Positions 1,834 through 54,451 of a DNA stretch of 64,000 nucleotides are shown one piece after another. The translations under genes and the position numbers were made by a program. Position 1 is the stretch's first letter; each line of letters starts with the position of its first letter. This DNA is from Lysinibacillus sphaericus. Lineage in GTDB: Bacteria > Bacillota > Bacilli > Bacillales_A > Planococcaceae. Location: NCBI RefSeq assembly GCF_006864135.1, contig NZ_SADV01000005.1, forward strand, positions 1 to 64,000, read 5' to 3'. The notes under the pieces are model-generated. The model was not told the origin of the DNA, did no database searches, and was given only the letters and a program-made list of their open reading frames with translations.

Positions 1834-2072
1834 GTCAATTATGCCTCGGCATAATTGCGTCCGGAATCGGCTTTGTGCTTAGGCCTGCACGAGGGCCGAC
1901 ACGATGTCGGTCATTTCGGTAATGCCACAGGACATTTGCAGGTCAGTTAGCCTTTATCGCATGGATACGATGATTTTAGGCTAACATCCTCTAAGACTTC
2001 CTTTCCGATTCTGTGACATCCGCCGGAGGTCTTAACTCCTTTCAGCAGGAATTTACTGAAAGAAGTTAATTC
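1834..2072. repeat. Dispersed modular repeat, copy A
   Basis: This stretch starts with AATTATGCCTCGGCATAATT and GCGTCCGGA, passes through a GCCACAGGAC module, and ends with CCGCCGGAGG and a pair of inverted segments (AACTCCTTTCAGC and CTGAAAGAAGTTA). The same modules recur at 9975, 13948, 19076, 23846, 44855, 48903 and 54206. It separates fhs from the csp promoter and encodes no credible protein. Confidence 0.8.
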
Positions 2073-2132
2073 CATTATAGACTTTATTGTGAATAAAATC
2101 ATAGTAAGTTATTCAAGTATTTCGACAATCGA

Positions 2133-2161
2133 TTGACAACATTGCACAATTCATGTATGTT
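2133..2161 (+). promoter_or_regulatory. Sigma-A-type promoter of the csp gene
   Basis: A perfect TTGACA (2133-2138) is separated by 17 bases from TATGTT (2156-2161). The predicted start of transcription near 2168 would leave a leader of about 85 nt before the csp start codon. Long leaders are common in cold-shock genes, where they control translation. Confidence 0.7.
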
Positions 2162-2254
2162 CTAAATGAAAATGCATTTTTTCACATTTTCACAATTTAT
2201 GTCACGACTTAATTGATTTTATTCTACATTCAAGCGCATGGGAGGCGAATGCTT

Positions 2255-2455
2255 ATGCAACAGGGAATCGTAAAGTGGTTCAATAATGAAAAAGGTTATG
2301 GCTTTATTGAATGTGATGATGGAGAAGATGTATTTGTACATTTTACGGGAATCCAAGAGGAAGGCTTCCGTACACTTGAAGAAGGTCAAAAGGTATCATT
2401 TGAAGTGGTCGAAGGCAATCGAGGGCCACAGGCGTCAAATGTTGTGAAAGTATAA
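2255..2455 (+). CDS. csp: Cold-shock protein, CspA/CspB family
   Basis: This is a small OB-fold RNA chaperone that binds single-stranded nucleic acid and keeps mRNA open in the cold. The 66-residue product has the RNP1-like segment KGYGFIE and the RNP2-like segment VFVHF, both with the expected aromatic residues. Two ATGs lie close together. The second (2255) is chosen because GGGAGG at 2240-2245 is 9 bases away, while the first is only 3 bases away and would add Met-Leu. The mRNA probably has a structured leader and ends at the hairpin just after the gene. Confidence 0.95.
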
Positions 2456-2460
2456 ACTCA

Positions 2461-2495
2461 AAGGAGCTGTTCGATGGATGAACGGCTCCTTTTTT
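2461..2495 (+). terminator. Rho-independent terminator of csp
   Basis: Arms AAGGAGCTGTTC and GAACGGCTCCTT enclose a 7-nt loop and are followed by a T run. It begins a few bases after the csp stop. Confidence 0.9.
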
Positions 2496-2534
2496 CAAAT
2501 GCTGAAATTAGCGCTGCTTTATAACATTATAACT

Positions 2535-3320
2535 TCAGCGATTGATCCAATAAAAAGCTCCGGGAAAAACTAGCGTTTCCTTCGTTCTATTAGTATCCAT
2601 AAGTGTAACCCCAAACGCCGCTTCATTTAAATGACCTAGTGTCATAGCCGCTGCAGCCACTTCGTCATAAAAATCCAGTCGAATATTTGGTAGATGTAAG
2701 GAGATAAACTGCTCTTGTTGGTCAGGCTCTGGTAGTTGTAATACTTCCTTCCATAAATTCACTGTTGCTTGCACATCTTCCACATAAAATTGGACAGATT
2801 CCATCGATATTGTTTGATTCGTATCAATGGCTCCATTTGCTTTTAATTGTGCCACACGTTCCTCATCTGTATCAGTCCACTCAATCAAAAATGGAAAATC
2901 AATTGCCTGCTCTGGCTTCCCAAAATGCAATAGCTTCCATTCTACTACAGAGCCATCTGGTCTTGTACGACTACAAGCATCAGGCCCATATACTTCAAAT
3001 CCAAGTGCACGTAAACGTTGTGCCTCTTCTTCAATATTTTTTGTACGTAATGCAATTCTTGAAAAACCATAGCGCTCGTTAGCACGTTTAAACGTATAAT
3101 GTAGGGAATAAGGTAATTTCACTGCATTTTCAAATAAATTACGATCATAAATCGCTATTTGCTCAATATAGTTTAATCCAAAATAGCTTAACGTATTGTA
3201 TGTCCCCCACATTGTATGTTGACCACCGTTAACTGTATGGATATTACGTTTATTTAAAAAAACCTTTGTATTTTCTGGTGATTGAACTTGATGAACTAGA
3301 TGGTCAAAATATAAAGTCAT
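2535..3320 (-). CDS. VOC (glyoxalase-like) family protein
   Basis: This 261-residue soluble protein starts with a vicinal-oxygen-chelate-type segment (FDHLVHQV) and has a second half with similar strand spacing (SVQFYVEDVQAT near residue 185), as expected of paired beta-alpha-beta-beta-beta units. The WGTYN and LSYFGLNYIE segments near residues 38-52 resemble the Glyoxalase_3 group. The substrate is unknown. AGGGGG precedes the ATG. It is divergent from the flavin reductase at 3484, so the two may share a regulatory region. I infer an enzyme or resistance-type binding protein but cannot name the reaction. Confidence 0.75.
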   Translation of the reverse strand: MTLYFDHLVHQVQSPENTKVFLNKRNIHTVNGGQHTMWGTYNTLSYFGLNYIEQIAIYDRNLFENAVKLPYSLHYTFKRANERYGFSRIALRTKNIEEEAQRLRALGFEVYGPDACSRTRPDGSVVEWKLLHFGKPEQAIDFPFLIEWTDTDEERVAQLKANGAIDTNQTISMESVQFYVEDVQATVNLWKEVLQLPEPDQQEQFISLHLPNIRLDFYDEVAAAAMTLGHLNEAAFGVTLMDTNRTKETLVFPGAFYWINR

Positions 3321-3483
3321 GACTGAACCCCCTTTTTTTCTCTATTATATACTTTACCTGTTAGTTTTGTTGGTTTAGAATAAAATTTAGAATATTATAA
3401 TTATTAGAAGTTGCTATATTTCAATGCTAGTAGTTCATTAAAAAGATTTTTTATTTTCGTAAATCAATGAAGAGGTGATTAGA

Positions 3484-3972
3484 ATGACAAACAAAGTAGC
3501 TGCTTTTAAACTAGCATTAGGTAATTATCCAACAGGTGTTACCGTTGTCACTGCTTGTAATGACGTAGGTGAACCTATTGGCTTAACTGTCAATTCCTTT
3601 GCGTCAGTTTCCATAGACCCACTCCTTATTTTATGGTCGCTCGATAAAAAATCACAGCTACATCCATATTTTACAGCGACTCAAAAGTTTGCTGTCAATA
3701 TTTTAGCGAGCAATCAAGAACACTTATGTACGCTATTTTCAAGTAAAATCCCAGATCGTTTCGCCCAGGCTAAATGGTCAATCTCTGCTTTAGGTCTACC
3801 GGTTTTACATGATACTGCGGCCATTTTACAATGCAAAACATCTCAGCAAATCGATGCTGGAGATCATACGATATTTATCGGGCAGGTCCTAGAAATTGAA
3901 AATCCACAGAAGGAACCCTTACTATATCATCGCAGGCATATTGGTGAAATCCCAAATAGTTTTTATGAATAG
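3484..3972 (+). CDS. Flavin reductase family protein (HpaC-like)
   Basis: This 162-residue FMN-binding split-barrel protein probably uses NAD(P)H to reduce flavin, either for a partner monooxygenase or as a flavin store. Family marks are YPTGVTVVT near residue 14, GLTVNSFASVSIDPLL near residue 33, and the late GDHTIFIGQV with a final HR.HIG. The ATG at 3484 is chosen over an in-frame GTG at 3475 because AGAGGTG at 3471-3477 overlaps that GTG and sits 6 bases from the ATG. No oxygenase partner lies next to it. Confidence 0.88.
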   Translation: MTNKVAAFKLALGNYPTGVTVVTACNDVGEPIGLTVNSFASVSIDPLLILWSLDKKSQLHPYFTATQKFAVNILASNQEHLCTLFSSKIPDRFAQAKWSISALGLPVLHDTAAILQCKTSQQIDAGDHTIFIGQVLEIENPQKEPLLYHRRHIGEIPNSFYE

Positions 3973-3995
3973 GCTATTGCAAGAAATTTATACGC

Positions 3996-4035
3996 AAAAA
4001 ACAGGATGACTCGTCGTGATCACCCTGTTTTTTTT
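3996..4035 (+). terminator. Rho-independent terminator
   Basis: AAAACAGGATGA and TCACCCTGTTTT form a stem with one mismatch, followed by a T run, 25 bases after the flavin reductase stop. Confidence 0.85.
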
Positions 4036-4108
4036 GACGTATTTTTCCGCTCTTTATCGAAATAATAAGTTTGATTGATGAAACAATAATTGATGAGGTG
4101 AAGTACAA

Positions 4109-4651
4109 ATGTTAAAAAAATCCCTTTACATGATACCTATTATTTTTTTATTTTCGGCTTATGAATGGGTAACTGCAAATTTTCACACCCCCCTTCCTTC
4201 ATTTGAAGAAAAATTCGCTGAAGGTGGATATATATCCGTGGAAAAGTCCGTTAAGAAATTTGAATATCATTGTAAGTGCAAGGTAAAGTTACCTCAATTT
4301 ATGCCACCGATTTCCTTCACACATCAATTTGGGAAATTTTACGAAGATAAAAAATATAACGTGAATGATGCATTGAGTATTATGTTTGTTAATAAAGAAA
4401 TAAAAGAAAATATTTATAAAATTGAGATTCGATCAATAGAGAATAAAATAAACTTCAAAGACAAATTGAACTTTAAAGGTAAAGAATATACTCTTCAAGA
4501 TGATACAAAAGCAATTTATTTTGAAGACCAACTATTTAACTTTTTTGTCTTCGAAAAACACAATTTGCAATATTTACTAGGTATTTATAAAGAGGTAACT
4601 AACACTGATACACCTCATACATTAGTTAAAATAGCTAATTCTTTAAAATAA
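4109..4651 (+). CDS. Secreted or membrane-anchored protein of unknown function
   Basis: The 180-residue product begins with Lys-Lys and a hydrophobic stretch to about residue 17, which looks like a signal peptide or an uncleaved anchor. There is no lipobox. The rest is lysine-rich and mixed alpha/beta, with a CKCK pair at about 55-58. The final third, with a YLLGIYKEV segment and an ending like LVKIANSL, recalls the DUF4367 fold seen after anti-sigma-like anchors; that is a weak resemblance only. AGGTGA precedes the ATG. It is a single gene, low in GC compared with its neighbours. Confidence 0.6.
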   Translation: MLKKSLYMIPIIFLFSAYEWVTANFHTPLPSFEEKFAEGGYISVEKSVKKFEYHCKCKVKLPQFMPPISFTHQFGKFYEDKKYNVNDALSIMFVNKEIKENIYKIEIRSIENKINFKDKLNFKGKEYTLQDDTKAIYFEDQLFNFFVFEKHNLQYLLGIYKEVTNTDTPHTLVKIANSLK

Positions 4652-4737
4652 CCTATGCTGTTGCTATGGATAGTAAGCTCAACAGTTCCTAAACATAAAA
4701 TGGCCAACCTAAACAATGGAAATATCCTCCATACTGT

Positions 4738-4893
4738 TTATTTTTTCTGCGGAAATCTTTGCTTTTCAAGTCTGTTAATTTGCACAATGACACCATCTTG
4801 AATCGTAATGTGTATTTCTCCAAATTCCAAATTTTGAATTGCCTTTGCAATTGCCTCTAGTTTATTGTCATCTACCTTTGCCTGTTGAGTCAT
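4738..4893 (-). CDS. Small YezD-like protein (DUF2292)
   Basis: A 51-residue protein starts at the ATG at 4891-4893 behind a good AAGGGGTG and ends at TAA 4738-4740. A lysine-rich amphipathic N-terminus leads to the core LEFGEIHITIQDGVIVQI, and the end reads EKQRF. This matches the pattern of the YezD/DUF2292 family (G.i.I.i.dG.ivqi....k.R). In Bacillus subtilis the relative belongs to the sulfur-starvation (CymR) set, but I found no CymR-type site here. Biochemical role unknown. Confidence 0.8.
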   Translation of the reverse strand: MTQQAKVDDNKLEAIAKAIQNLEFGEIHITIQDGVIVQINRLEKQRFPQKK

Positions 4894-5151
4894 CCGATAC
4901 ACCCCTTCTTTTAACATTTTTTAAGGCCAAAACATCAATCATAGCCGACTTATCCTAAATAACTCTTGACCTACTATATTATTATCAAAGCTTCTTTTTA
5001 GGCCAAGTTGTAGGTATTTCGTTTCTTTGAAATAATTCTATAATTCTGAAAACCTGTTGTCAATATAAATATTATAAATCTTATTTGTTTACTAAGGAAT
5101 AAAAAATCAATAAGCACCAGCATCGTCCTCATGGACAAAAAACATCAAAAC
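4894..5151. other. Non-coding gap upstream of the yezD-like gene
   Basis: AT-rich sequence that must hold the promoter of the small minus-strand gene. I see no convincing -35/-10 pair on that strand, no riboswitch fold and no further ORF with a ribosome binding site. Confidence 0.4.
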
Positions 5152-5190
5152 AAAAACTGTGCAGATTTATTTACCTCTACACAGTTTTTT
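5152..5190 (-). terminator. Terminator of the coaB-like gene
   Basis: AAAAACTGTG and CACAGTTTTT form a 10-bp stem directly after the coaB-like stop codon on the minus strand, and the A/T tails give a U run in either direction. Confidence 0.85.
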
Positions 5191-5192
5191 CA

Positions 5193-5867
5193 TTAATTAT
5201 TTTGTAGGCAATCCATTAGTGCTTTCGCTGTCTTTTGCTTGCCCATAACCTTCATCGGTTCGCCTTGAGCCGGTACTATCCAGTGTGGCTCATCTCCACC
5301 ATATAAAGATTGTGAGCTATTCGCTACCATAAACTGAGCGTTGGCGGATTCCATCCGTAGACGTGCACGGGATAGTAAAAATTCCTCGTCATCTGTTGCC
5401 TCGAGTTTAAAGCCTACTAAAGTTACTTTAGGCTGCCACCCTTTTATTTGACCTAATACTTTAGGTGCCTTTTTAAAGTGAATGATAGGTGGCTCATCAG
5501 ATGGCATTTTACCTGCTTCCTCCATTAAATTCCCAGATTGGTCATACACTTTGTCAATGAGCCAATCAGAACCTGCAGCTGCCATAATAACGATATCCAC
5601 TTGTTCTTCCTGAACAGCATGTCGAACTTTCTCGCCCAAATCTTCAATACCTTCAAATCGAATGGTACGCATTTTATCTTTGTTCGCTGGAAGCTGTGCA
5701 AAATAACCGTGCATATACAATACGTTTGCCCCAGCCTTTAGTGCCGCTTCAGCTAAATAACAGCCCATCGACCCTTTCGATAAATTCGTATGCCCTCGCA
5801 CACGATCCCATTTTTCAAGTGTTCCCCCACTTGTAATGAGTACGGTCTTACCTCGTAATGTCCCCAT
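5193..5867 (-). CDS. CoaB-like phosphopantothenoylcysteine synthetase domain protein
   Basis: CoaB joins cysteine to phosphopantothenate in coenzyme A synthesis. The 224-residue product starts with the nucleotide-binding LITSGGTLE and has GSMGCYLAEAAL near residue 33, DIVIMAAAGSDW near 90 and HFKKAPKVLG near 130, all typical of the DFP/CoaB fold. Most Bacillales carry a fused CoaBC of about 400 residues, so a stand-alone CoaB-type domain without the flavin CoaC half is either an extra paralogue or a member of a related synthetase group. WDRVRGHTN replaces the usual iDpVR..tN. Whether it makes CoA is an inference. Confidence 0.75.
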   Translation of the reverse strand: MGTLRGKTVLITSGGTLEKWDRVRGHTNLSKGSMGCYLAEAALKAGANVLYMHGYFAQLPANKDKMRTIRFEGIEDLGEKVRHAVQEEQVDIVIMAAAGSDWLIDKVYDQSGNLMEEAGKMPSDEPPIIHFKKAPKVLGQIKGWQPKVTLVGFKLEATDDEEFLLSRARLRMESANAQFMVANSSQSLYGGDEPHWIVPAQGEPMKVMGKQKTAKALMDCLQNN

Positions 5868-5964
5868 ACACTCACCTTTTTCTAGAAAATATACAATTAC
5901 TATTTTATCGTAATGCTATGTTATGCTTCAATGTTGTTTTTATAAGATTGGCGTTAAATTAATA

Positions 5965-6840
5965 CTATTTCATATTTTGCTCTTTTAACCAGGAACTTAA
6001 TATCTCAGCAAATTTCTTGGTCACTGGTGAAGCATGATGTTTCATCGCAATTCCAATTGTGCGATAGCCACCTTGTTTTAAAGGTATAGCTTTTATCGTA
6101 GCAGGTAAGTTATACGTCACTAATTTCGGTAAAATACTAATTCCAAGCTGGTGAGCAATCATTGAAATGATCCCTACCTCTTCCGATAGTTCAAAACGAA
6201 TATTTGGCTTCACGTGATATTGCTCTAACAGCACTTTTACATCATTTGTCCCTTTATATGAAGTCATGATAAATGGCATGTTTTCTAGTTCAACAATATC
6301 AATTTCGGCTTTATTATAAAGTGGACTTTTATCGGAGACAATACACAGCAATGGATCCTGCTGAAGTTCGGTAAACTGATACTGCTTAGACTTTTGACCA
6401 TTTAAAAATCCCACATCAACCTCTCCACTCAATAGCCATTGTTCAATTTCATAATAATCTCCCTCACGCAATTCGACTTGTATACCAGGAAATTGATTGT
6501 CCATAATACGAACAATTTCCGGCATCCAGTTTGAAGAAATACTTGAAATTACTCCAATTCTTACTTTTCCTCGAGTAACGCCAAGTATGTGTGCGGCTTC
6601 TTGCTGTAATAGTTCTTGTGCATCGAGCACATGTCTCATTGCCCTCAGCATTGTATTACCTTCACTCGTTAACGTGACACCTGCTCGACTTCTGTGAATG
6701 AGTGCAAAGCCGAACTCCTTTTCTAAGCTTGAAACAGCATGACTTACAGCAGATTGGGTTAATCCCAATGCATCTGCTGCTTTTGTAAAGCTAGATACCT
6801 CAGCCACTTTATTCAAAATCTCATATTTGACTAAACTCAT
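5965..6840 (-). CDS. LysR-family transcriptional regulator
   Basis: The product has an N-terminal winged helix-turn-helix (VSSFTKAADALGLTQSAVSH, residues about 13-32) followed by a periplasmic-binding-like effector domain, 291 residues in all. The start at 6840 is chosen because AGAGG lies 8 bases upstream; an in-frame ATG 39 bases earlier would add a tail without a site. It is divergent from the EamA transporter, and LysR proteins commonly control the neighbour they diverge from, so the 130-bp gap probably holds its operator. The effector is unknown. Confidence 0.9.
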   Translation of the reverse strand: MSLVKYEILNKVAEVSSFTKAADALGLTQSAVSHAVSSLEKEFGFALIHRSRAGVTLTSEGNTMLRAMRHVLDAQELLQQEAAHILGVTRGKVRIGVISSISSNWMPEIVRIMDNQFPGIQVELREGDYYEIEQWLLSGEVDVGFLNGQKSKQYQFTELQQDPLLCIVSDKSPLYNKAEIDIVELENMPFIMTSYKGTNDVKVLLEQYHVKPNIRFELSEEVGIISMIAHQLGISILPKLVTYNLPATIKAIPLKQGGYRTIGIAMKHHASPVTKKFAEILSSWLKEQNMK

Positions 6841-6974
6841 CGCCTTGTCCTCTATATACATGAATTTTTTTAATACCAACCATTATAAACATTCGTTTTA
6901 CTAATCACAACACAAGATTTATAGTAAATTTTAGAATAAAAACTGTTTTAGTACACAGATTGTAGGTGAGCATA

Positions 6975-7874: not shown

Positions 7875-7876
7875 TT

Positions 7877-7909
7877 CAGAGTGGTGCATGTGCACTCACT
7901 CTGTTTTTT
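7877..7909 (+). terminator. Rho-independent terminator
   Basis: CAGAGTG and CACTCTG arms, extended by TGCATGTGCA in the middle, are followed by TTTTTT just after the EamA gene. Confidence 0.85.
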
Positions 7910-9229: not shown

Positions 9230-10170
9230 CTACTTTAGTTCCTTACGAATTTCGTTTATCTTTGTCACTGGAAGCTTTGAAACTTCAGCAGTCCTCTCAT
9301 CGTCACACCCGTTTCAATCAAACCACTGATTATTTGTTTAATGGTTTGTTCGATTCCTTGCTCAATTCCTTCCTGCCTTTCTAATTCCAAATCTCCAGCA
9401 AATATCGGCGGTAAATCTTTTTTATTTAGATGCAAAATATCTTCCTCCCTTTCTGCTCAGACATAGATTTTGGTAGCTTTAATAAATAATCAATGAAGGA
9501 AAGAAGCTTACGTATCTCTTTGCGTTCAACTTTACTTAATAACGAAACTTCTCTTAATAATGCTCTTTTGTAAGCACTACGATAGCTCGTTTCGTTTTTT
9601 GTTTGATTTAAATAAATTGATGCTAGTAAAGCTTTACTTAACAGCTTCGTTGATTTTTTTTAATTCAAAATCTGACACGACAAACTTGTTAAATGTATAA
9701 GATATTTTTCATGATACTGATTCGTGCTTTTGGTACTCGTGTCTGTAAAAATTGCACTTGCCACAATCTTCTTACCATAACGATCACTAATGTCGATAAA
9801 AATACTCAAACATCCGCTTCGCAAAGTGCTCTTCATCTACCGCTTGAATCTCTGTATGGACAAGAATCCATTGCTCACTCCCACTCTTTAAATGAACTTT
9901 CGCAATTTGATCAGCTACGTTAACAATGCTCAATAATTTCTTTGAAAAGCTCTTGCTGTAAAAACTCAACTTACTATCAATTATGCCTCGGCATAATTGC
10001 GTCCGGAGGCTTTAACTTCTTTCAGGGGTGTTTGGACACCTACTGAAAGAAGTTGAAAAATCCACTTCTTCATGTAATTCTGGCAAAAAGAACAACAAAA
10101 AATCTTCAAACAAATACGCAATTAACTTCTTCCATAGATTATTTTGATTCACTTGACTAAGCTTATACAC
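9230..10170 (-). pseudogene. Rpn/PD-(D/E)XK-type nuclease (transposase-like) pseudogene
   Basis: The Rpn family are PD-(D/E)XK nucleases linked to recombination. The minus strand can be read through several frames as one damaged member. A GTG at 10168-10170 behind AGGAGA leads into WKKLIAYLFEDFLLFFLPEL. After a repeat insertion it continues as EFLQQELFKEIIEH, shifts frame into NVADQIAKVHLKSGSEQWI and LVHTEIQ, and, after a stop, reads YGKKIVASAIFTD, then ALLREVSLLSKVERKEI, and ends KINEIRKELK with TAG at 9230-9232. At least three frameshifts or stops plus the insertion make it non-functional. Confidence 0.85.
9975..10055. repeat. Dispersed modular repeat, short copy B inside the Rpn pseudogene
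   Basis: An 80-bp minimal form holds only the two end modules: the AATTATGCCTCGGCATAATT palindrome with GCGTCCGGAGG, joined to AACTTCTTTCAG and CTGAAAGAAGTT around GTTTGGACACC. It splits the coding sequence between the FLPELHEEVDFS and EFLQQELF segments, which shows that the family inserts into coding DNA. Confidence 0.85.
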
Positions 10171-13857: not shown

Positions 13858-13947
13858 ATTGAACTCTCGCTCCTTTCACGTCCAAATTTCGCTTCCTACT
13901 ATTATGAAGTGAACATTTTGAACAAGCAACTATTTTGTTTATCCATT

Positions 13948-14195
13948 TAACATCTTTCTGCAAATCTCTTTTGTATCGACAGGCACAGATGCTTTTTGTA
14001 ACGTAAGTGAAACGGCAGTTACAAATGTCTTTTGTACCGAAAGCATAGCGACAGGTACAGATTTTTACCATCTCTTTAGGTAGTGAGATAAAAGCGGATT
14101 TGAGCTACTTTCTTTTCAGCAGGTGTCTAAACCTCGCTGAAAGACGTTAAAGCCTCCGGCGGATGCCACGGAATTATGCCAAGGCATAGTCGATC
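13948..14195. repeat. Dispersed modular repeat, copy C (inverted orientation)
   Basis: Reading plus, it runs AACATCTTTCTG, then a CTTTTTGTAACGTAAGTGAAACG module, TTGTACCGAAAGCATAGCGACAGG, a GGTAGTGAG module, CTGAAAGACGTTAAAGCCTCCGGCGGATG and finally a decayed AATTATGCCAAGGCATA palindrome. The same order is seen in copy G at 48903, only 320 bp long there. Confidence 0.75.
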
Positions 14196-18983: not shown

Positions 18984-19075
18984 GGATATTCACCTCCTAC
19001 ATGTAATGTGCTCAGGATAAAAGGTTTTATGCTTTGGGGATAACTGCTGGCATTACTAAAAGGTTTCCAGTCCAA

Positions 19076-19340
19076 TCAATTTCGCCTTAGCATAATTGCA
19101 TCCGGATGTTGAATTGTGCCCGCACAATTCCTTCCTTTCAAATTCGTGACATCCGCCGGAGGCTTTGGGCCAACAGATGTTTTTTACGGGAAAGCGTAGC
19201 GTTAGCGGCATGATATTGGTCACTCAGTCGTGTGTTGTTGTTGCTGTCGCTTTCGCACAGATAAGATATGGCGTCTTTATTTCAGTAGGTGTTTGGAAAA
19301 AGGAACCACATCTGTATTCTTTCAGCTCTTCTTTCCGTCG
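19076..19340. repeat. Dispersed modular repeat, copy D
   Basis: It starts with a decayed palindrome (TCGCCTTAGCATAATTGC), contains GACATCCGCCGGAGGCTTTGGGCCAACA, a GATGTTTTTTACGGGAAAGCGTAGCG module, and GGTCACTCAGTCG, and ends near a TATTTCAGTAGGTGTTTGG module. Immediately right (19322-19365) are two units of the unrelated CTTTCCGTCGCTT family. No real gene lies between 18984 and 19429. Confidence 0.75.
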
Positions 19341-19385
19341 CTTTGATTTTAATCCGTCTTATAGGTAGAACTTTGAATAAAAATA

Positions 19386-23845: not shown

Positions 23846-23963
23846 ATCGATTTATGCCCCGGCATCATTGCGTCCGAAATCCGCGGAGGCTTTAGGTCAA
23901 CACATGTTTTTTTGCGCGAAAGCGTAGCGCAGCTGTTTGGACATCCGCTGAAAGAAGTTAATC
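23846..23963. repeat. Dispersed modular repeat, copy E
   Basis: A short copy has TTATGCCCCGGCATCATTGCGTCCG, CCGCGGAGGCTTTAGGTCAACA, the TTTGCGCGAAAGCGTAGCG module and CATCCGCTGAAAGAAGTTAA. It sits between the reductase stop and the nitroreductase promoter. Confidence 0.8.
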
Positions 23964-24670: not shown

Positions 24671-24765
24671 TCCAAGAGAAAGACTGTATCAATTACGCTT
24701 GGTTTGAAGTGCTCGCTGAATGAAGAAAAATGTTCTTTTTCGAATAAATATGATACACTAAATAT

Positions 24766-24895
24766 AGAATAAAAAAGACTGGATGCGTCAACATCCAGTC
24801 AAAGCAACAATCATGCCGCAACCATAGCGGCTGACTAAGTTAAAGTTATAGCATTAGCCACCTTACTTAGCCGGCAGGGTGGCTATTTCTTTTTA
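24766..24895 (+). ncRNA. Probable antisense antitoxin RNA (RatA-like)
   Basis: A plus-strand transcript is inferred from TACACT at 24754-24759 with a weak upstream element, a perfect 5' hairpin at 24778-24801 (GACTGGATG arms) and a terminator-like stem AGCCACC...GGTGGCT at 24856-24884 followed by TTTCTTTTTATTTT. It overlaps the 3' end of the convergent toxin gene, the arrangement of txpA/ratA-type type I systems. No transcript has been shown here. Confidence 0.6.
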
Positions 24896-24990
24896 TTTTG
24901 AGAGACAATAATGCTAAGCATCAGTGTCAGTACTGCAATTAGCAAAAGGCTACACTGCACAATCAAACTGAATGCTTCAAATACTGTCAT
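24883..24990 (-). CDS. Holin-like type I toxin peptide
   Basis: The 35-residue peptide starts MTVFEAFSLI and has one hydrophobic helix (about 8-29) and the tail SQNKKK. This is the pattern of the putative holin-like toxins of Firmicutes, which insert in the membrane. Its start is preceded by the G-rich GGGGGGTGAGGCGG typical of this group. The mRNA probably ends at the stem overlapping the antisense RNA. It is too short for ordinary gene callers. Confidence 0.85.
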   Translation of the reverse strand: MTVFEAFSLIVQCSLLLIAVLTLMLSIIVSQNKKK

Positions 24991-25161
24991 CCGCCTCACC
25001 CCCCTTCAAAAGGGAGTTCAGCCGCCACCTGCATTATGAATTGTTACTATTGTTAGTCTAACAATTTTACGAAATATATTCTATGGAAAATCCTCAGAAA
25101 ATTTAAAATTGCTACTCACTTACATAATTAGTCAAACAACTCTAAAGAGTTGCTCTGTACA

Positions 25162-39974: not shown

Positions 39975-40335
39975 ATCCACGTTTTTGGATTTCTATCCGT
40001 CGCTCTGACGATTCTATCCACGATTTGAGCAGGGCTATCCACGACTTTGGATTTCTATCCGTCACCTCGGCTCTTCTTTCCGCCGCTCCTACCTTTCTTT
40101 CCGTCGCTTCAGCTCTTCTTTCCGTCGCTTCAGCTTTTCTTTCCGTTGCTTCGGCTCTTCTTTCCGTCACTCTAATTTCTATCCGTCACTTCGACTCTTC
40201 TTTCCGTCACCTTGGCTCTTCTTTCCGTCGCTCTGATTTCTATCCGTCGCTGCAGCTTTTATTTCCATCGCTCTTGCCTTTCTTTTCTTTCCGTCGCCTC
40301 TGCTCTTCTTTCCGTCGCTCCGCCCTTACTCCCCT
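39975..40335. repeat. Tandem array of TTTCCGTCGCTTCGGCTC-type units
   Basis: About 18-21 imperfect copies of an 18-21 bp unit built on (T)CTTTCCGTC(G/A)CTTCGGCT, with a variant CTATCCGTC, fill the gap between the MBL and sulfurtransferase genes. All reading frames stay open for part of it, giving false repeat proteins on both strands. The same unit occurs at 60060-60285 and twice at 19322-19365. Confidence 0.85.
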
Positions 40336-44825: not shown

Positions 44826-44854
44826 AAAACCAGTAACCCCTTTATTCATATTAA

Positions 44855-45112
44855 TCAATTTCGCCTTGGCGTAATTGCCGCTGTCGCGCCGATCAACAAT
44901 GCGTCGGATTTTTCCGCCGGAAGCTTTAGGCCAACAAATGTTTTTTGTGCGAAAGCGAAGCGGCAGCAACACGATGTTGGTCACTCAGTCGTTGCCACAG
45001 GACGTGGCGTTCTTAGACTGAGTTCCTCTATTTCAGTAATGTTTAGAAAGAAACTATATCCGCATTCATCTTACCACTTCAGAGGTGGTATTTTTCTGAA
45101 TGAAGATAGTCA
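44855..45112. repeat. Dispersed modular repeat, copy F
   Basis: It begins with TCGCCTTGGCGTAATTGCC, then TCGGATTTTTCCGCCGGAAGC, CCAACAAATGTTTTTTGTGCG, AAAGCGAAGCGGCAGCAACA, GTTGGTCACTCAGTCGTTGCC, ACAGGACGTGGCGTTCTTAG and a CCTCTATTTCAG end. The order matches copies H and A. It lies 30 bases upstream of dynA, so the dynA promoter is inside or beyond it. Confidence 0.8.
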
Positions 45113-45257
45113 TAATTAGTATTCTACCTTATTCGACAAACAAAGTATAACACTAATTTACTTTGAAAAGCATATATATAAAGGTTTCAGACGCCATATT
45201 CATCCATATCGTCCTGTTTAATCAAAAAAAATGCACTATTCAGGTTCACTATCAAAA

Positions 45258-45437
45258 CGTGTGGTTGATTTCCGTTCCGACTGGGCGCTTTGTTGCTGAC
45301 GCTTCGCTTTCGCACAGGTAATACATTGTTGCTGACGCTTCGCTTTCGCACAGGTAATACATTGTTGCTGACGCTTCGCTTTCGCACAGAACAAAGCTCT
45401 TGGGGGCGTCCGATGAGCCGCTTCGCTCCAAGGTCTC
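45258..45437. repeat. Three 36-bp tandem units flanked by conserved borders (locus 1)
   Basis: Units starting at 45292, 45328 and 45364 read GTTGCTGACGCTTCGCTTTC followed by GCACAGGTAATACATT. The left border GGTTGATTTC..GTTCCG..TGGGCGCTTT and right border GGGGGCGTCCGATGAGCCGC also frame the second locus at 51511. The unit is the complement of the GTGCGAAAGCGAAGCG module inside the long repeat. Confidence 0.85.
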
Positions 45438-45678
45438 TAACAAATGGTATCTTCAATTTATGATAGTAGGCCATTATTTTTTTATAAAACTACCAATTTC
45501 TATTCCAAAATGGTTGCACAACTAAGTAAATAATAATTTTCTCCATATTTTAAAGTAAGGAAAATTAAGTTTTAAAAAAAGGTATTAGGCGATTGCAATA
45601 CTAAAATTTCCAAATGCAGTCGAAATTTTAACCACAAAGCGAAATGAGGGACAAACAATTAAATGAGGTGATAAAAAA

Positions 45679-48424: not shown

Positions 48425-48782
48425 AGTACTAGAATATCGAACTATTCCAAATGATATATCCTATGCCAATTCATTAAACATTTATGAACACACTTTGTCA
48501 TTCTCTATAATTAACAGAGGATGCCCCATTAGGCTTAAGTCCAAAATACAATTAGTAAAATTTCTTGAAAATAAAGATATTTTAATAACAATTCCTCTAA
48601 TTCTAACCAATAAGTGGCTATCTCAATGACTATTGAGGTGGCTATTTTTTATTCTACCCTCAATTTTTCACATTTTTTTCACACATTTCGCCAATATATG
48701 TGATTTTTTTCACATCTAAAAGAAATTTATTTATATATCATGGCAATAAGAAAGACACAATAAAAGCGTAGGAGGAGCAAAA
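48425..48782. other. Gap between cheX-like gene and the oxidase operon
   Basis: A 72-codon frame overlaps the cheX stop region but has no ribosome site and a poor composition. A weak hairpin (CTCAAT/ATTGAG) with TTTTTT near 48620-48650 may terminate the cheX-like gene. The oxidase promoter must lie in 48660-48770, which contains TTCACA stretches. Confidence 0.45.
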
Positions 48783-48905
48783 ATGGCAAATAAAAAAAAG
48801 TCAGATGAAAATTTAAAAGGTTCACTCTATGCGGTATTTGGAGTAGGAATCATCATTATCTTGCTTTGGGTGTACTGCTTCGATTTGTTCATCAATCGTT
48901 TTTAA
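48783..48905 (+). CDS. Cytochrome ba3 oxidase subunit IIa
   Basis: The 40-residue single-helix peptide has a polar start (MANKKKSDENLKGSLYAVF) and the helix GVGIIIILLWVYCFDLFINRF, as for the small subunit IIa of ba3-type oxidases. AGGAGG is 6-8 bases before the ATG. Its stop codon TAA forms the first bases of a dispersed repeat copy, which separates it by 347 bases from subunit II. Confidence 0.85.
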   Translation: MANKKKSDENLKGSLYAVFGVGIIIILLWVYCFDLFINRF

Positions 48906-49226
48906 CTTCTTTCAGCAATTGTTTTTTGTAGCAAAAGTGAAGCGTCAGCTACAGATGTTTTATGAAACGTAAGTAAAACGTCAAGTCTTTTGTACCAAAA
49001 GCATAGCGACAGGTACAAAAGTCTCCACCTCTATAAGTGGTGGATGAATGCGGATTTAAGCTACTTTTCTGCGAGTATTCAAACGCCCGCTGAAAGAAGT
49101 TAAAGCCTCTGGCGGATGTCACGGAATCGGAAAAGAGTTCTTTGTGCAAGCACAAAGCCGATTTCAGAAGCATTGTTTATCTGCGCGAAAGCGTAGCGAC
49201 AGCGGCAATTATGCCGAGGCATAATG
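48903..49226. repeat. Dispersed modular repeat, copy G, inside the ba3 oxidase operon
   Basis: It starts AACTTCTTTCAGCAATTG right at the subunit IIa stop, then runs TTTTTTGTAGCAAAAGTGAAGCG, TTTATGAAACGTAAGTAAAACG, CTTTTGTACCAAAAGCATAGCG, a GGTGGATGAATGCGG module, CGCTGAAAGAAGTTAAAGCC, GGCGGATGTCACGGAATCGG, TGCGCGAAAGCGTAGCGACAG and ends CAATTATGCCGAGGCATAAT. It has no terminator-like T run at its end, so transcription may pass through. Confidence 0.85.
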
Positions 49227-49252
49227 ATTCTACTAAGAAAGGACAGAGACAT

Positions 49253-49747
49253 ATGCACTTACATAAGTATGAAAAATATTGGCTTGTGTTTGGAGTTACT
49301 ACTTTAGTAGCATTCCTTATCATTCTAGGCATCGGTGCATTCCATCAAGGCTCACATCCAAACAATGGTAAAAAAACACTAGATTATGAGAAAGTAAGAG
49401 AATTTGCACCCTTCGATAACCCGGGTGTACATAAAGTAGAAGGTAAAAATTGGGATTACGAAGTAGTTGTTTTAGCATCAGCATTTAACTACAATCCTCC
49501 AGAAATTGAAGTGCCACTTGGAGCTAAAGTGAAATTTATTGCAACGAGTGCAGATGTAATGCACGGTTTTGAAGTTGCAGGTACAAATATTAATATGATG
49601 CTTGAACCAGGTTACATTTCTGAATATGTAACTACAGTAAATAAAGAGGGAGAGTTTTTAATCGTATGTAATGAATATTGTGGTACAGGACATACGATGA
49701 TGCACTCTATGCTAAAGGTGGTGAAGCCAAATGAGTCTCAACAATAA
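49253..49747 (+). CDS. Cytochrome ba3 oxidase subunit II (CuA)
   Basis: It takes electrons from cytochrome c at its dinuclear copper centre. The 164-residue product has one membrane helix (about 9-30) and a cupredoxin domain with the full CuA ligand set His104, Cys139, Cys143, His147 and Met150 in CNEYCGTGHTMMH. The spacing equals that of the Thermus ba3 enzyme. The ATG at 49253 follows AAAGGA; earlier codons are in the repeat. It overlaps subunit I by 17 bases. Confidence 0.94.
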   Translation: MHLHKYEKYWLVFGVTTLVAFLIILGIGAFHQGSHPNNGKKTLDYEKVREFAPFDNPGVHKVEGKNWDYEVVVLASAFNYNPPEIEVPLGAKVKFIATSADVMHGFEVAGTNINMMLEPGYISEYVTTVNKEGEFLIVCNEYCGTGHTMMHSMLKVVKPNESQQ

Positions 49748-51392
49748 TTTGACAAAAGTGGATCGTCGTGATGCGAAGCTAGCGATGGCACATATTTATG
49801 TGGCATTCATCGCATTGTTATTAGGGGGTCTTGCTGGTTTATTACAAGTTTTCGTTCGTTCTGGTCAATTTACATTACCAGCAGGCATTGGTTACTATCA
49901 AGTTTTAACCGTACATGGTGTTTTACTCGGTCTTATTTTAACAACATTCTTTATTTTTGGTTTCCAAATTGCTAGTGTTAGCCGTACGTCAGGGACTTTT
50001 TCAGACGGTCAACGTCGCCTTGGCTGGATCGGCTTCTGGTTAATGACTATCGGTACAGCAGCAGCTGCAACAATGGTTCTACTTAATGAGGCATCTGTTT
50101 TATATACGTTCTATGCTCCATTGAAAGCTCACTGGATATTCTATTTTGGCCTTACATTAGTCGTTGTTGGTTCTTGGGTTGGCGGCGCGGGTCAAATATT
50201 ACGCTATGCACAGTGGCGCAAAGAAAACAAAGGAAGCGGACAACGAAGCCCATTACTATCATTTATGGTTGTTGTTAATAATTTAATGTGGTTTGTAGCA
50301 ACTCTAGGTGTAGCTGCTTCTGTTCTATTCCAGTTACTACCATGGTCCTTAGGCTTTGTTGAACGTGTCGACATAGCACTATCCCGTACATTATTCTGGT
50401 ATTTTGGTCATGCGCTTGTGTATTTCTGGTTATTACCAGCATACATGGTTTGGTATGTCATTATTCCGAAGGTTATTGGTGGAAAAATTTTCTCTGATTC
50501 TTTAGCAAGACTATCATTTATGCTATTCTTAATTTTCTCTGTACCAGTTGGGATTCATCACCAATTAACAGAGCCTGGTATTGCTAGCACATGGAAATTC
50601 ATACAAGTTGTATTAACGTTTGCCGTAATCGTACCATCCTTAATGACTGCCTTTTCGATGTTTGCAATGTTTGAACTACGTGGTCGTGAATTAGGTGGTA
50701 AAGGTCTTTTCGGCTGGCTCAAAAAGTTACCATGGAAAGATGCTCGTTTCTTCGTGCCATTTATCGGTATGCTAGCGTTTATTCCCGGTGGCGCTGGCGG
50801 TATCATCAATGCTTCTTACCAAATGAACCAAGTAATCCATAATACTATTTGGGTTACAGGGCATTTCCATTTAACAATTGCAACAACAGCCGTTTTAACT
50901 TATTTCGGTGCAGCATTTTGGTTAATTCCATATTTAACAGGTCGTACATTGACTAAATCTTTAAACAATCTTGGTAATTTTGCCGCTATTTTATGGGCTA
51001 CTGGTATGACAATTATGTCTTCCGCTATGCATATCGCTGGGCTGATCGGTGCACCCCGTCGATCTGATTACTCTGAGTATGGCGGTGCTCAACAAGCTTA
51101 TGATTGGATTCCTTATCAAATCGCTCAAGCTGTTGGTGGTACGATTCTATTCATCGCTATCTTAATCATCCTTTATATTGTGGTGAAATTAGCATGGTTT
51201 GCACCAAAAGGAGAAGAGGAATTCCCAGTTGGTGAAGTACATGAAAACGGTGGTACTACTCCAGCTATCTTAGAGAACTTTAAAGTATGGCTTGTTATTT
51301 TAGTAGCATTAATTTTATTTGCTTATACTATTCCAATTATCGATATTATTTCTAATTCCCCTCCAGGCTCTAAAGGCTATAAACTTTGGTAA
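49731..51392 (+). CDS. Cytochrome ba3 oxidase subunit I
   Basis: The catalytic heme-copper subunit of a B-type oxygen reductase has 553 residues with about 13 membrane helices. Heme and copper ligands are visible in VLTVHGVLLG (near 63), WYFGHALVYFWLLPAY (near 222-237), IHHQLTEPG and TGHFHLTIATT (near 380). It reduces oxygen to water and pumps protons. Overlap with subunit II suggests coupling. No subunit III is seen, as usual for ba3. Confidence 0.95.
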   Translation: MSLNNNLTKVDRRDAKLAMAHIYVAFIALLLGGLAGLLQVFVRSGQFTLPAGIGYYQVLTVHGVLLGLILTTFFIFGFQIASVSRTSGTFSDGQRRLGWIGFWLMTIGTAAAATMVLLNEASVLYTFYAPLKAHWIFYFGLTLVVVGSWVGGAGQILRYAQWRKENKGSGQRSPLLSFMVVVNNLMWFVATLGVAASVLFQLLPWSLGFVERVDIALSRTLFWYFGHALVYFWLLPAYMVWYVIIPKVIGGKIFSDSLARLSFMLFLIFSVPVGIHHQLTEPGIASTWKFIQVVLTFAVIVPSLMTAFSMFAMFELRGRELGGKGLFGWLKKLPWKDARFFVPFIGMLAFIPGGAGGIINASYQMNQVIHNTIWVTGHFHLTIATTAVLTYFGAAFWLIPYLTGRTLTKSLNNLGNFAAILWATGMTIMSSAMHIAGLIGAPRRSDYSEYGGAQQAYDWIPYQIAQAVGGTILFIAILIILYIVVKLAWFAPKGEEEFPVGEVHENGGTTPAILENFKVWLVILVALILFAYTIPIIDIISNSPPGSKGYKLW

Positions 51393-51413
51393 CAATGTTT
51401 TGCATCTTCATAA

Positions 51414-51450
51414 AAAAAAGCGATTTCTCTAGCTGAGAAATCGCTTTTCA
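51414..51450 (+). terminator. Terminator of the ba3 operon
   Basis: AAAAGCGATTTCTC and GAGAAATCGCTTTT form a perfect 14-bp stem around AGCT, with a T run. An almost identical hairpin recurs at 51954. Confidence 0.92.
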
Positions 51451-51510
51451 CTTTGCTGAAAAAATGTAATTAAGGTATTAATTAAAGTAAAGCTTTTATG
51501 CAAAACGAGG

Positions 51511-51700
51511 GGTTGATTTCAGTTCCGGTTGGGCGCTTTGTTGCTGTCGCTTCACTTTCGCTACAGAAAACATTTGTTGCTGTCGCTTCGCTTTCGCACA
51601 GATAAAACATTTGTAGCTGACGCTTCGCTTTCGCACAGAGCATAGCTTCCTGGGGGCGTCCGATGAGCCGCTTCACTCGCGAAGCTCGCTCCAGGATCTT
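51511..51700. repeat. 36-bp tandem units with conserved borders (locus 2)
   Basis: Three units begin at 51540, 51576 and 51613 (GTTGCTGTCGCTTC... / GTAGCTGACGCTTC...). They are flanked by the same GGTTGATTTC..GTTCCGG and GGGGGCGTCCGATGAGCCGC borders as at 45258. Reading frames across it are spurious. Confidence 0.82.
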
Positions 51701-51739
51701 ATCTGTGACGCAGATCCCCAAGAGTCGTCAGCCTCCACT

Positions 51740-51950
51740 TCAATCAACCAATTCACATAGCATATTTTTTATGTACGAAACGGAGCGGCAGTAACAAGAT
51801 GTGTTTTTATGCCAAAGCGAATCAGCAAAATACTTAAACGGAGGAAGTTGCACAACTCCCTCCCCCAGGTGAGCGAGTAACTTAGCTCCACCCTCATCGA
51901 AAACGCCACAACATACAAAGTAATTTCCTTGACCATTTCCTTTTCGACAT
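51740..51950. repeat. Degenerate repeat sequence
   Basis: Contains ATTTTTTATGTACGAAACGGAGCGGCAGTAACAAGATGTG, a decayed form of the CGAAAGCGAAGCGGCAGCAACA module given in pieces elsewhere, then AGGAAGTTGCACAACTCCCTC, a short inverted repeat. No gene. Confidence 0.5.
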
Positions 51951-51953
51951 TAT

Positions 51954-51990
51954 GAAAAGCGATTTCTCTGTAGTTGAGAAATCGCTTTGT
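51954..51990 (-). terminator. Terminator of the M32 carboxypeptidase gene
   Basis: AAAGCGATTTCTC and GAGAAATCGCTTT pair around TGTAGTT; on the minus strand the tail is TTTTC. The stem matches that at 51414 base for base over 13 bp. Confidence 0.85.
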
Positions 51991-51993
51991 CCT

Positions 51994-53490
51994 TTAGAGC
52001 TGATACAGCTTCGTATACTTTTCTTGTAAATAGTTTGCTAAATATTTGGCGTTTAAGCCTTCTCCTGTTGCCTCTTGTAACAATTCGAACGGCTTCTTCA
52101 ACGCGCCGTATTGATGGACTTTGTCTGTTAACCACTCTCGAATTGGTAGGAGCTCTCCCTTTACTAACAGCTCATCAAAGTTTGGAAGATCTTTATCCAT
52201 TGCATGCTTCCATTGTGCAGCGTAAATCATTCCTAAAGCATAGGATGGGAAATAGCCAAACATGCCCCCTGACCAGTGCATATCTTGTAGTACCCCTTTT
52301 GCATCTGTTTCAGGACGAATGCCTAAATATTCTTCGTATTTATCATTCCATACTTGTGGAAGATCTTTCGCTTGAAGATCGCCGTTGAATAAATCACGTT
52401 CAATTTCATAGCGAATCATAATATGTAGTGGATACGTTAACTCATCTGCTTCAATGCGAATAAACGATGGCTCCACCATATTAATTGCTCGTAGGAATTC
52501 AGCTAATGCTACATCACCAAATTGCTCAGGTGAATACTTTTGAAGTCGCTCGTAGTTATGCTCCCAGAACTTTTCGTTCCTACCAACAAAATTTTCATAA
52601 AATAAAGATTGGGACTCATGTATTCCCATAGATGTACCTGTTGCTAACGGTAAACCATCAAGCTTCACATCAATATTTTGCTCGTACATGGCATGTCCAC
52701 ACTCATGGATAGTTCCAAAAATTGCTGAGCGGAAATCATTTTCATCATATTTCGTTGTAATACGATTATCTCCATGATTTATGCCTATCATAAATGGATG
52801 CACACTTTCGTCTAAGCGACCTGCATCAAAATCATAGCCAAGTTGTGCTAACATTTCTAATGATAATGCACGCTGAGATTCACGAGGGAAATGCTTAAAT
52901 AATAGGCTTGTATCTGGTTTCTTAGGTGAAGCTGCAATTTTTTGCACAAGAGAAACAATTGTTTCACGTAAGTCACTAAAAACTTGATCTAAAACATCAG
53001 TCGTCATATCAGGTTCATATAAATCTAGTAATGTATTGTATGGAGAACCATTTTTAATCCCCCAATATTGAATGAATTTCTTCTGCCAGCTTATAATTTC
53101 CTCTAGATAAGGTAGGAACAAAGCAAAATTATTAGCTTCCTTTGCTTCTTCCCATGCTGTTTCCGCTTTAGATTGTAAAATTACAAATTTCTTATATTCA
53201 TCAGCCGGAATTTTTTTATTTTGATCATACTCTTTACGTACTTCCTCAACTAAACGCAGTGTAACATAATCAAGATCTGCCTTTTGCCCCTCTAGATCCG
53301 TTAGTAATTGCCCTAACTCTTCACTAGTTTGCATGTCAAATAAGGAGGCAGATAATGTTCCAACTACCTCTGAACGCTGAGCTAATCCCTTCTTAGGTGC
53401 ACCCGTGCGCATATCCCAATAAATCACACTTAATGCTTCTCCGTAATGCTTCATTTTTTTTACATAGTCAGTAAATTGTTGTACGGTCAT
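51994..53490 (-). CDS. ypwA: Thermostable-type carboxypeptidase 1 (M32)
   Basis: This zinc carboxypeptidase removes C-terminal residues in the cytosol. The 498-residue product has the zinc motif HECGH in IFGTIHECGHAMYEQ (near 260) and the family segments DVRTT-like, ESQSLFYEN and MVEPSFIRIEADELTYPLHI. AAAAGGAGG precedes the ATG. It is monocistronic. Confidence 0.95.
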   Translation of the reverse strand: MTVQQFTDYVKKMKHYGEALSVIYWDMRTGAPKKGLAQRSEVVGTLSASLFDMQTSEELGQLLTDLEGQKADLDYVTLRLVEEVRKEYDQNKKIPADEYKKFVILQSKAETAWEEAKEANNFALFLPYLEEIISWQKKFIQYWGIKNGSPYNTLLDLYEPDMTTDVLDQVFSDLRETIVSLVQKIAASPKKPDTSLLFKHFPRESQRALSLEMLAQLGYDFDAGRLDESVHPFMIGINHGDNRITTKYDENDFRSAIFGTIHECGHAMYEQNIDVKLDGLPLATGTSMGIHESQSLFYENFVGRNEKFWEHNYERLQKYSPEQFGDVALAEFLRAINMVEPSFIRIEADELTYPLHIMIRYEIERDLFNGDLQAKDLPQVWNDKYEEYLGIRPETDAKGVLQDMHWSGGMFGYFPSYALGMIYAAQWKHAMDKDLPNFDELLVKGELLPIREWLTDKVHQYGALKKPFELLQEATGEGLNAKYLANYLQEKYTKLYQL

Positions 53491-53600
53491 GCTAACATCC
53501 TCCTTTTCACGCTACTAGTTTATCATATTTTCGAAAATTTTGTATATTATGGACTTTATAGTATTTTTTATAGGAATAGTAACTGTTCACAATTTTATTT

Positions 53601-53690
53601 CTACAAAACTATTCCATTGCGAATAGCATATACAACCGCTCTCGTTCGATCCACTGCACCAATTTTTTGTAAAATGCGAAAAGAAACGTT
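53601..53690 (-). pseudogene. C-terminal remnant of a LuxR/NarL-type response regulator
   Basis: The minus strand reads VSFRILQKIGAVDRTRAVVY followed by AIRNGIVL and TAG at 53601-53603. This matches the last helix-turn-helix and tail (..IlqKlg..dRtqAvvyAirnGiv) of NarL/FixJ response regulators. An in-frame stop lies just upstream and the rest of the gene is absent. Confidence 0.8.
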
Positions 53691-53708
53691 TTAAAATCCA
53701 TATTTTTT

Positions 53709-54158
53709 TCATCCAGTAAGTTGTTTGTATTTCATATAAATAATAAACCGACGAGCACATACACTACCAAGCGGTATAAACATAAGAGCATTCGTTAATG
53801 ATATTACAGCATGCTCTTTTCCCCATTTTGCTGCAAGTAGACGCAAAAGAAGAATTCCTAGAAATACAATAACTCCAGCGACAGAGCTTTGTGTAGTTAC
53901 GATTCCTCTTTCATGATTAACACGGATTTTTTCTAATTTTCCTCTCCAAATCCCGATACCTATGCCAATTGTTAAACAAATGAAGTACAAGATATAGCTT
54001 ATCAGTGTTAATTTATCTGAACTTAAAATAGAAGTACACGTTATCCCAATTAACAAAATCGGTATTATCCACATTCTAGTTGGTCTAACTTTTTTCTCCC
54101 TTAACATAAGAAGAATCATGACTATAAGGACAACCAAGTAGCTACTCATTTCACTCAT
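53709..54158 (-). CDS. CcdC-like membrane protein (DUF1453)
   Basis: The 149-residue product has four to five membrane helices and IGIGIWRGKLEKIRVNHERG in the middle, typical of the CcdC/DUF1453 family. Related genes often precede a histidine kinase and response regulator. Here only a 28-codon regulator remnant follows, so the partner system has been deleted. AGAGGGA precedes the ATG. Confidence 0.78.
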   Translation of the reverse strand: MSEMSSYLVVLIVMILLMLREKKVRPTRMWIIPILLIGITCTSILSSDKLTLISYILYFICLTIGIGIGIWRGKLEKIRVNHERGIVTTQSSVAGVIVFLGILLLRLLAAKWGKEHAVISLTNALMFIPLGSVCARRFIIYMKYKQLTG

Positions 54159-54205
54159 TTCTTTCCCTCTCTTTCTTTAATAAATTTTTAGTAAAAGTAG
54201 AATAT

Positions 54206-54451
54206 CAATTATAGCTCGGCATAATTGCGTCCGGAAGGCAGAAGGCTTTTGGCCAAGACGAGTTGGTTACTCAGTCATTGCCACAGGACGTGGCGTATTT
54301 AGACAGAGTTCCTCTATTTCAGCGGATGTTTGAACACCCGCTCCAAAAGTGACTTAAAACCGCATTCTTCTTTACCACCAATAGAGATGGTAGACTTCTG
54401 TAGCTGTCACTTTGTTTTCGCTATAGAAAATAATTGCTGAAAGAAGTTAAA
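54206..54451. repeat. Dispersed modular repeat, copy H
   Basis: It begins CAATTATAGCTCGGCATAATTGCG, then GGCTTTTGGCCAAGACGAG, GTTGGTTACTCAGTCATTGCC, ACAGGACGTGGCGTATTTAG, CCTCTATTTCAGCGG, a TTTACCACC..GAGATGG module and ends ATTGCTGAAAGAAGTTAAAG. The whole gap 54159-54658 has no gene; an AT-rich stretch follows the repeat. Confidence 0.8.

Follow-up and report, generated by a model that had tools for sequence, protein, structure and literature searches.

The window considered here is a 64,000-nt stretch of Lysinibacillus sphaericus (assembly GCF_006864135.1, contig NZ_SADV01000005.1, positions 1 to 64,000), and it carries eight copies, E1 to E8, of a dispersed family of short repeats (Table 1). 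The family consists of PATE-like (palindrome-associated) mobile elements that encode no enzyme themselves: it has defined boundaries, a TTAA-like target, hairpins at both ends, no gene, presence or absence at given sites between species, and an orientation that follows replication. A copy was found at all eight places listed by the original prediction, which had been made from the letters alone, and the modules recur in both orientations as it had described. The copies total 1,793 bp, or 2.8% of the window. E4 and E6 share a subtype of ends. E6 and E8 reach the gathering score (35 bits) of the Rfam RNA family Bacillaceae-1 (RF01690), E1 falls short of it, and no match was listed for the remaining five of the eight.

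Table 1. Repeat copies in the window and the Bacillaceae-1 modules within them
Feature	Position	Strand	Remarks
E1	1834-2065	-	232 bp; target TTAA at 2066-2069; missing from 4/5 relatives
Bacillaceae-1-like module in E1	1924-1995	-	33.1 bits, under the gathering score of 35
E2	9976-10052	-	77 bp, shortest in the window; left and right hairpin; target TCAA at 10053-10056
E3	13951-14194	+	244 bp; TTAA at 13947-13950; C modules 13991-14023, 14027-14059
E4	19075-19384	-	310 bp; right end of ..GGCGAAATTGAT subtype; decayed left end; missing from 4/5 relatives
E5	23846-23957	-	112 bp; target TTAA at 23958-23961; C module starting 23905
E6	44854-45105	-	252 bp; end subtype CTTCATTCAG..GGCGAAATTGAT; flank CTAT
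Bacillaceae-1 module (RF01690) in E6	44966-45032	-	75.9 bits
E7	48906-49228	+	323 bp; target TTAA at 48902-48905; C modules 48921-48953, 48985-49017, 49175-49207
E8	54204-54446	-	243 bp; target TTAA at 54447-54450
Bacillaceae-1 module (RF01690) in E8	54253-54318	-	52.8 bits

Each element spans from CTTCTTTCAG at the left to the hairpin AATTATGCCGAGGCATAATTGAT at the right, and on the strand used by Rfam for Bacillaceae-1 it reads TTAA, CTTCTTTCAGC, core, GCAATTATGCCGAGGCATAATTGAT. The host set has 57 copies: 58 elements were extracted from the window and 79 fetched stretches, and one artefact (L086, plus strand) was dropped. This set was chosen via exact left-end arms and includes just two of the eight window copies, and because of that selection it overstates left-end conservation. 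The copies were found to be 49-520 nt long, measured from TTAA to ..AATTG, a wider range than the predicted 80-320 bp; their cores are variable, as the prediction had described. The palindromic end described in that prediction is real, but both ends are hairpins, the second arm of the left one (CTTCTTTCAG..CTGAAAGAAG) being located inside the element; modules therefore lie in hairpin loops or between hairpins. In 42 of the 57 copies the left end has a pairing partner, CTGAAAGAAG or, before a Bacillaceae-1 unit, CTGAAATARAGG; the right hairpin is present in every copy, by selection. Several copies without the second arm are short and appear to resemble deletions between repeated modules. The cores are made of recurring hairpin cassettes, namely Bacillaceae-1 units (GCCACAGGACGTGGCG is a portion of RF01690), a 35-nt "C" hairpin with the loop GAAAGCGWAGCGRCA, and longer stem-loops. 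Beyond a few letters, the CTTCTTTCAG.. and ..AATTGAT ends are not inverted repeats of each other, in agreement with the predicted lack of a visible terminal inverted repeat. The predicted lack of a transposase agrees with the short length of the copies and with a search for a gene-bearing version, in which 12 wider end pairs within 6 kb, drawn from 107 right-end matches (some counted twice in overlapping loci), gave no transposase frame recognised by eye. C modules also occur in tandem arrays, one of them with 37.7 copies of the 35-nt unit between two genes (host contig C9, L062 1022-2346). Host contig C22 (L142) has open frames, near a TnpB remnant, that look like C-module arrays in translation.

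The insertions can be compared with empty sites in five relatives, which were fetched across the window interval. Relative to at least one of them, the window has 14 insertions of at least 40 bp: five whole family copies (E1-E5), two insertions within E6 and E7, one member of a second repeat family, one possible decayed ninth copy and five unrelated stretches. The possible ninth copy, at 24671-24726, is a 48-bp insertion relative to KCTC 33748 with the end ..CTGAATGAAGA, perhaps of the E6 end subtype. E2 apparently falls within a frame that is uninterrupted in relatives lacking this copy, as judged by eye from the aligned flanks. The E7 site is empty in two genomes and occupied in three, by copies with differing cores that measure 326, 227 and 188 nt (TTAA to right-hairpin end), which indicates a change of the core after insertion, in place or by conversion, or repeated hits on the site. 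At 24778-25046, on the minus strand, a BsrG-type toxin-antitoxin RNA was detected (RF01412, 57.1 bits), and the relative FJAT-14745 has a TTAA element inside the matching stretch.

For the junctions, 13 copies, 10 of them with comparators, yielded 32 filled/empty comparisons at eight sites; every possible stretch near the ends was removed and the fused flanks were aligned to the empty site. In 13 of the 32 comparisons the best fit, alone or in a tie, came from cutting precisely behind TTAA and behind ..TTGAT, and nine more were on the same diagonal, giving zero net duplication or loss in 22. The elements sit directly 3' of TTAA-like tetranucleotides, without consistent target duplication. The tetranucleotide is regarded as part of the target because one filled copy has TTAG where the empty site has TTAG, and because E2 keeps TCAA. 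A less biased set than the 57 host copies was obtained from a relative's complete 5.29-Mb genome (G015), in which 31 copies with both ends were found through the right end, with left ends also searched at up to three mismatches. The flanking tetranucleotide was TTAA in 21, TTCA in three and TTAT in three, with TAAG, TCAA, TAAA and ATAA also seen; a T precedes it in 27 of the 31, and in 25 the element opens with C. In these copies the nine-base stretch TTCTTTCAG is conserved at 94-100% (the search tolerated three mismatches in 15), and no strong base preference was seen in their right flank. The family was predicted to resemble miniature inverted-repeat transposable elements (MITEs), which holds insofar as it is dispersed, lacks a transposase and has copies that are precisely missing from the corresponding places in relatives, indicative of insertion; it is not a classical MITE family, there being no consistent target duplication.

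Copies are also found beyond the window, well above chance, as had been anticipated. The left-end arm CTGAAAGAAGTTAA, with up to one mismatch, was found 207 times in the host genome versus 5 times for a reversed control; the right end ATTATGCCGAGGCATAATTGAT was found 215 times at up to three mismatches and 167 times at up to two, with controls at 0; and CGAAAGCGTAGCG was found exactly 114 times versus 0 for its control, a good part within tandem arrays. At up to three mismatches, the right end occurs in 31 of 32 Lysinibacillus genomes, with 1 to 258 matches where present, the lowest counts perhaps by chance. At up to two, at least one match was found in 82 of 200 genomes and in 10 of the 19 genera of the family Planococcaceae, with up to 70 per genome outside the genus. 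Phage and plasmid collections gave no match to one 140-nt copy used as query; in IMG/VR, the right end gave none, and the 15-letter left end was found in 119 stretches, roughly the level expected by chance on a rough estimate.

The orientation of the copies was found to follow replication. In G015, 100 of 118 right ends were listed, and two were second members of double matches, leaving 98; the first gene is dnaA-like by eye, and the GC skew changes sign between the stretches at 2.65 Mb and 2.92 Mb. The inserted strand is on the lagging-strand template in 86 of these 98 listed copies (47/51 exact matches, 24/30 with one mismatch, 15/17 with two). The baseline for coding bases in 20 evenly spaced stretches is 78% co-oriented, against which p is 0.01 for all 98 copies, 0.007 for the exact ones and 0.5 for those with one mismatch. 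The type-2 repeats, a second family sharing cassettes with the TTAA elements, are co-oriented in 16 of 30 cases in the same genome (Fisher p = 1.4e-4). Among 40 G015 stretches, half of them picked for holding copies, 40 of 50 copies follow replication, including 17 of 20 in gaps between convergent or divergent genes (p = 0.0026) and all seven that are remote from genes or at the edge of a stretch. Of 94 genes next to host copies, 66 (70%) run in the direction of the element, near the replication-driven expectation, and on host contigs with at least three copies the majority strand holds 33 of 40 (P = 0.003). Two other genomes, in which the origin was not located, can be set beside these. The single contig of G001 has 10 plus copies below its middle and 10 minus copies above, so that all 20 listed of its 27 fit. 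In contig coordinates G011 runs the opposite way, with 6/6 minus below 2.7 Mb and 9/12 plus beyond it. PMC5371812 and PMC6006769 report the same polarity, with the inserted strand in the lagging-strand template, for ISDra2 and IS608.

What enzyme could have moved the elements? Y1_Tnp (PF01797) was found in 21 of the 37 genomes searched (the host and 36 relatives; the copy-rich genomes G024, G025 and G028 are outside this set). Many Lysinibacillus genomes with Y1_Tnp hold few repeat copies. Both occur in G001, G005, G007, G011 and G018, with the Y1 matches stop-riddled or partial in G001, G007 and G018; the remnants in G001, G007, G010 and G018 show DNA similarity to other IS200/IS605 copies. 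Y2_Tnp (PF04986) was found in two of 32 genomes (the host and 31 relatives). At 33 TnpA/TnpB loci the right end was never found, and a left-end-like match (2-3 mismatches) was found at seven, one each. A host search for the TnpB zinc ribbon (PF07282) gave three TnpB fragments, none with the right end and one with a left-end-like match (three mismatches).

Matches to RF01690 were present in 32 genomes out of 61, the host having at least 69. Among 105 distinct Bacillaceae-1 units, selected by unpaired letters only, 92.9% of the stem cells pair, versus 78.0% (sd 0.5) when shuffled, and two-sided changes occur at 14 of 17 pairs; the compensatory changes that had been proposed as a check are thus present. 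On the Rfam strand, mismatches comprise 19 G.U and 39 A.C (p = 0.012, post hoc). The corresponding ratios are 35:35 in the right-end hairpin and 84:88 in the C hairpin (a first C-module count was discarded for loose windows with noise mixed in), unlike Bacillaceae-1 (Fisher p = 0.028). A control of 41 tRNAs, viral ones included, had 74 G.U and no A.C, and is soft because ARAGORN selects for pairing. RNA on Rfam's strand is unsupported by this mismatch pattern; the reverse complement, or neutrally decaying DNA hairpins, fits it. Passages in PMC4333381 propose that the reverse complement of Bacillaceae-1 binds CsrA and also report doubt about the strand, and BSGatlas reports eight Bacillaceae-1 structures in B. 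subtilis. In 125 distinct contexts, a sample weighted toward high-scoring matches, Bacillaceae-1 is located in TTAA elements in 48 cases, in type-2 repeats in 65, near both in three and elsewhere in nine. In a genome of another genus (G036, L293-L295), it was observed in other repeats (..GCTAGCGCCTGAAGCTGGATATCT..) without TTAA-element ends. The suggestion that the family possibly folds as RNA is partly supported: one module is Bacillaceae-1, with strongly covarying stems, but the mismatches lend no support to RNA pairing on the Rfam strand and the module also belongs to another repeat family. Mobility is not described in the passages found on Bacillaceae-1/RF01690, and a search for Lysinibacillus miniature inverted-repeat elements gave no paper, subscription papers being mostly outside both searches.

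Among known systems, the closest description is that of the PATEs of Haloquadratum. The passages found in PMC3119063 describe elements without terminal inverted repeats, with near-terminal palindromes, no target duplication and too short for a transposase, and all four tabulated traits are shared by the Lysinibacillus repeats. Both also have cores shortened by deletion between repeats, harbour other small repeats and are present or absent at specific sites. The paradox of the mover enzyme is common to them too: strain-specific PATE insertions are reported there, yet all IS200-type transposases are broken in strain C23. The Lysinibacillus repeats differ from the PATEs described in those passages in having no matching-end IS605 element found, far more copies, interchangeable hairpin cassettes and a bacterial host. 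With IS200/IS605 elements (IS608, ISDra2) they share insertion 3' of a tetranucleotide, a hairpin at each end and the lagging-strand template, whereas they carry neither tnpA nor tnpB and their ends are unlike those of the compared Lysinibacillus IS200 copies; the repeats are not assigned to IS200/IS605 proper, since a TnpA element bearing such ends was not found. RF01690 itself is matched in full in two window copies, but its 67 positions correspond to one cassette of a longer mobile repeat. The pneumococcal BOX repeats, as the passages found in PMC3049150 describe them, likewise have fixed end modules, variable inner modules, stem-loops, many copies and seeming dormancy, whereas a link to ISSpn2 terminal inverted repeats is proposed there; BOX, like the bcr1 repeats, is compared by description only. 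The REP/REPIN-RAYT systems described in PMC3116915 and PMC6006769 are also palindromes without a transposase, for which a Y1 enzyme is the presumed mover. The Lysinibacillus repeats differ in lacking the GTAG/GTGG foot (TTAA stands before the left end), in having two unlike ends and in having no Y1 match in the host; the predicted likeness to repetitive extragenic palindromic (REP) sequences gained no support.

Overall, these repeats are probably non-autonomous elements moved as single-stranded DNA in the manner of IS200/IS605, by an enzyme acting in trans. TTAA-side insertion, no consistent duplication and lagging-strand bias are read as the marks of IS200/IS605 single-strand transposition, and we infer a single-strand intermediate and an HUH-type enzyme. 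Such an enzyme would recognise both end hairpins, cleave 3' of TTAA at the left and 3' of TTGAT at the right, and paste the strand 3' of another TTAA, on the lagging-strand template behind replication forks. Since neither the host nor G015 yielded a Y1 or Y2 transposase, the driver would have been lost or be of unknown kind. Cassettes would be swapped, duplicated and deleted, most likely via recombination between repeats, and copies would decay after insertion. A classical MITE, another enzyme-driven element (with a DDE enzyme or a serine or tyrosine recombinase) or dispersal through recombination alone is quite improbable: the missing HUH enzyme, the copies without a left hairpin and a few extra bases in six junction comparisons would suit it, whereas the fixed tetranucleotide on a single side, the replication polarity and the lack of both a terminal inverted repeat and a consistent target duplication would not. 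Retention as functional RNAs, with Bacillaceae-1 and the other hairpins selected in place as small RNAs (sRNAs) or mRNA parts, for example in CsrA sequestering, is also unlikely, if somewhat less so. The wide core variation, the same-site presence or absence between species, the orientation of copies by replication and the right-end and C hairpins, which have no G.U excess on either strand, count against such a role; the listing of RF01690 as an RNA family, the pairing and two-sided changes in its stems, and its A.C excess, which becomes a G.U excess on the reverse complement, are what speak for it. Intron and bridge-RNA readings were judged to fit poorly with 77-bp minimal copies and a fixed tetranucleotide.

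Several observations weigh against single-strand movement by a trans-acting enzyme. Y1_Tnp was not found in the host, in G003 or in the complete G015, nor Y2_Tnp in the host or G015, and the IS200 copies of relatives were rejected as partners, the ends of those compared being unrelated to those of the repeat. The orientation excess over the coding baseline in G015 is modest, and copies with one mismatch are no higher than that baseline. Gaps between replication-directed genes have 14 of 19 copies with replication and those between replication-opposed genes two of four; in the complete genomes G019 (three listed) and G031 (six listed), with few diverged copies, a clear pattern was not seen. Ten of the 32 junction comparisons are off the zero diagonal: in six the filled site is longer by 1-4 bases (nine in one tie) and in four it is shorter, the extra bases varying within a site. 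Two of the eight sites, both xylDSM-only (positions 69030 and 53834), are never on the zero diagonal, and the BsrG site is on it only with the cut shifted two bases; there the flank reads TTAA when filled and TTGA in empty sites, a misfit with the tetranucleotide as target. The second arm of the left hairpin is not recognisable in 15 of 57 host copies, which core deletion could explain. Finally, no copies are identical, so present activity is not seen, and nearest neighbours are 71-95% similar for the 48 of 57 copies whose alignments were of sufficient length; with nearest copies differing by 5-29%, the family looks dormant.

Type-2 repeats follow the pattern GTTGATT..GGCTGGGCGACTCC..CGCCCAGCCGGAACGGAAATCAAC and lie at 45253-45474 and 51501-51760 in the window, with C modules common to the TTAA elements; in other genomes they also share Bacillaceae-1 cassettes with them. 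A third repeat type, arrays of a 21-bp unit (TTCTTTCCGTCGCTTCRGCTC-like), is found at 40032-40335, 60053-60290 and 19321-19358. There may be a link to the 190-bp repeats of B. subtilis, for which a literature search gave no support.

What do these repeats mean for the biology of the family? A tentative and rather doubtful proposal is that Bacillaceae-1 is a hairpin cassette of replication-coupled single-stranded DNA mobile repeats rather than a stand-alone sRNA, that the mover of these repeats is an enzyme of neither known family, Y1 or Y2, and that cassettes are traded between unrelated repeat families in hairpin loops. RF01690 matches in these genomes should not be tallied as independent sRNA genes, and the results suggest viewing an Rfam RNA family anew, as a component of mobile elements. 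They raise the question of which enzyme lies behind hundreds of copies where a Y1 transposase is no longer found. With up to about 200 copies per genome and a control family in the same genome, the elements offer a large natural record of lagging-strand insertion.

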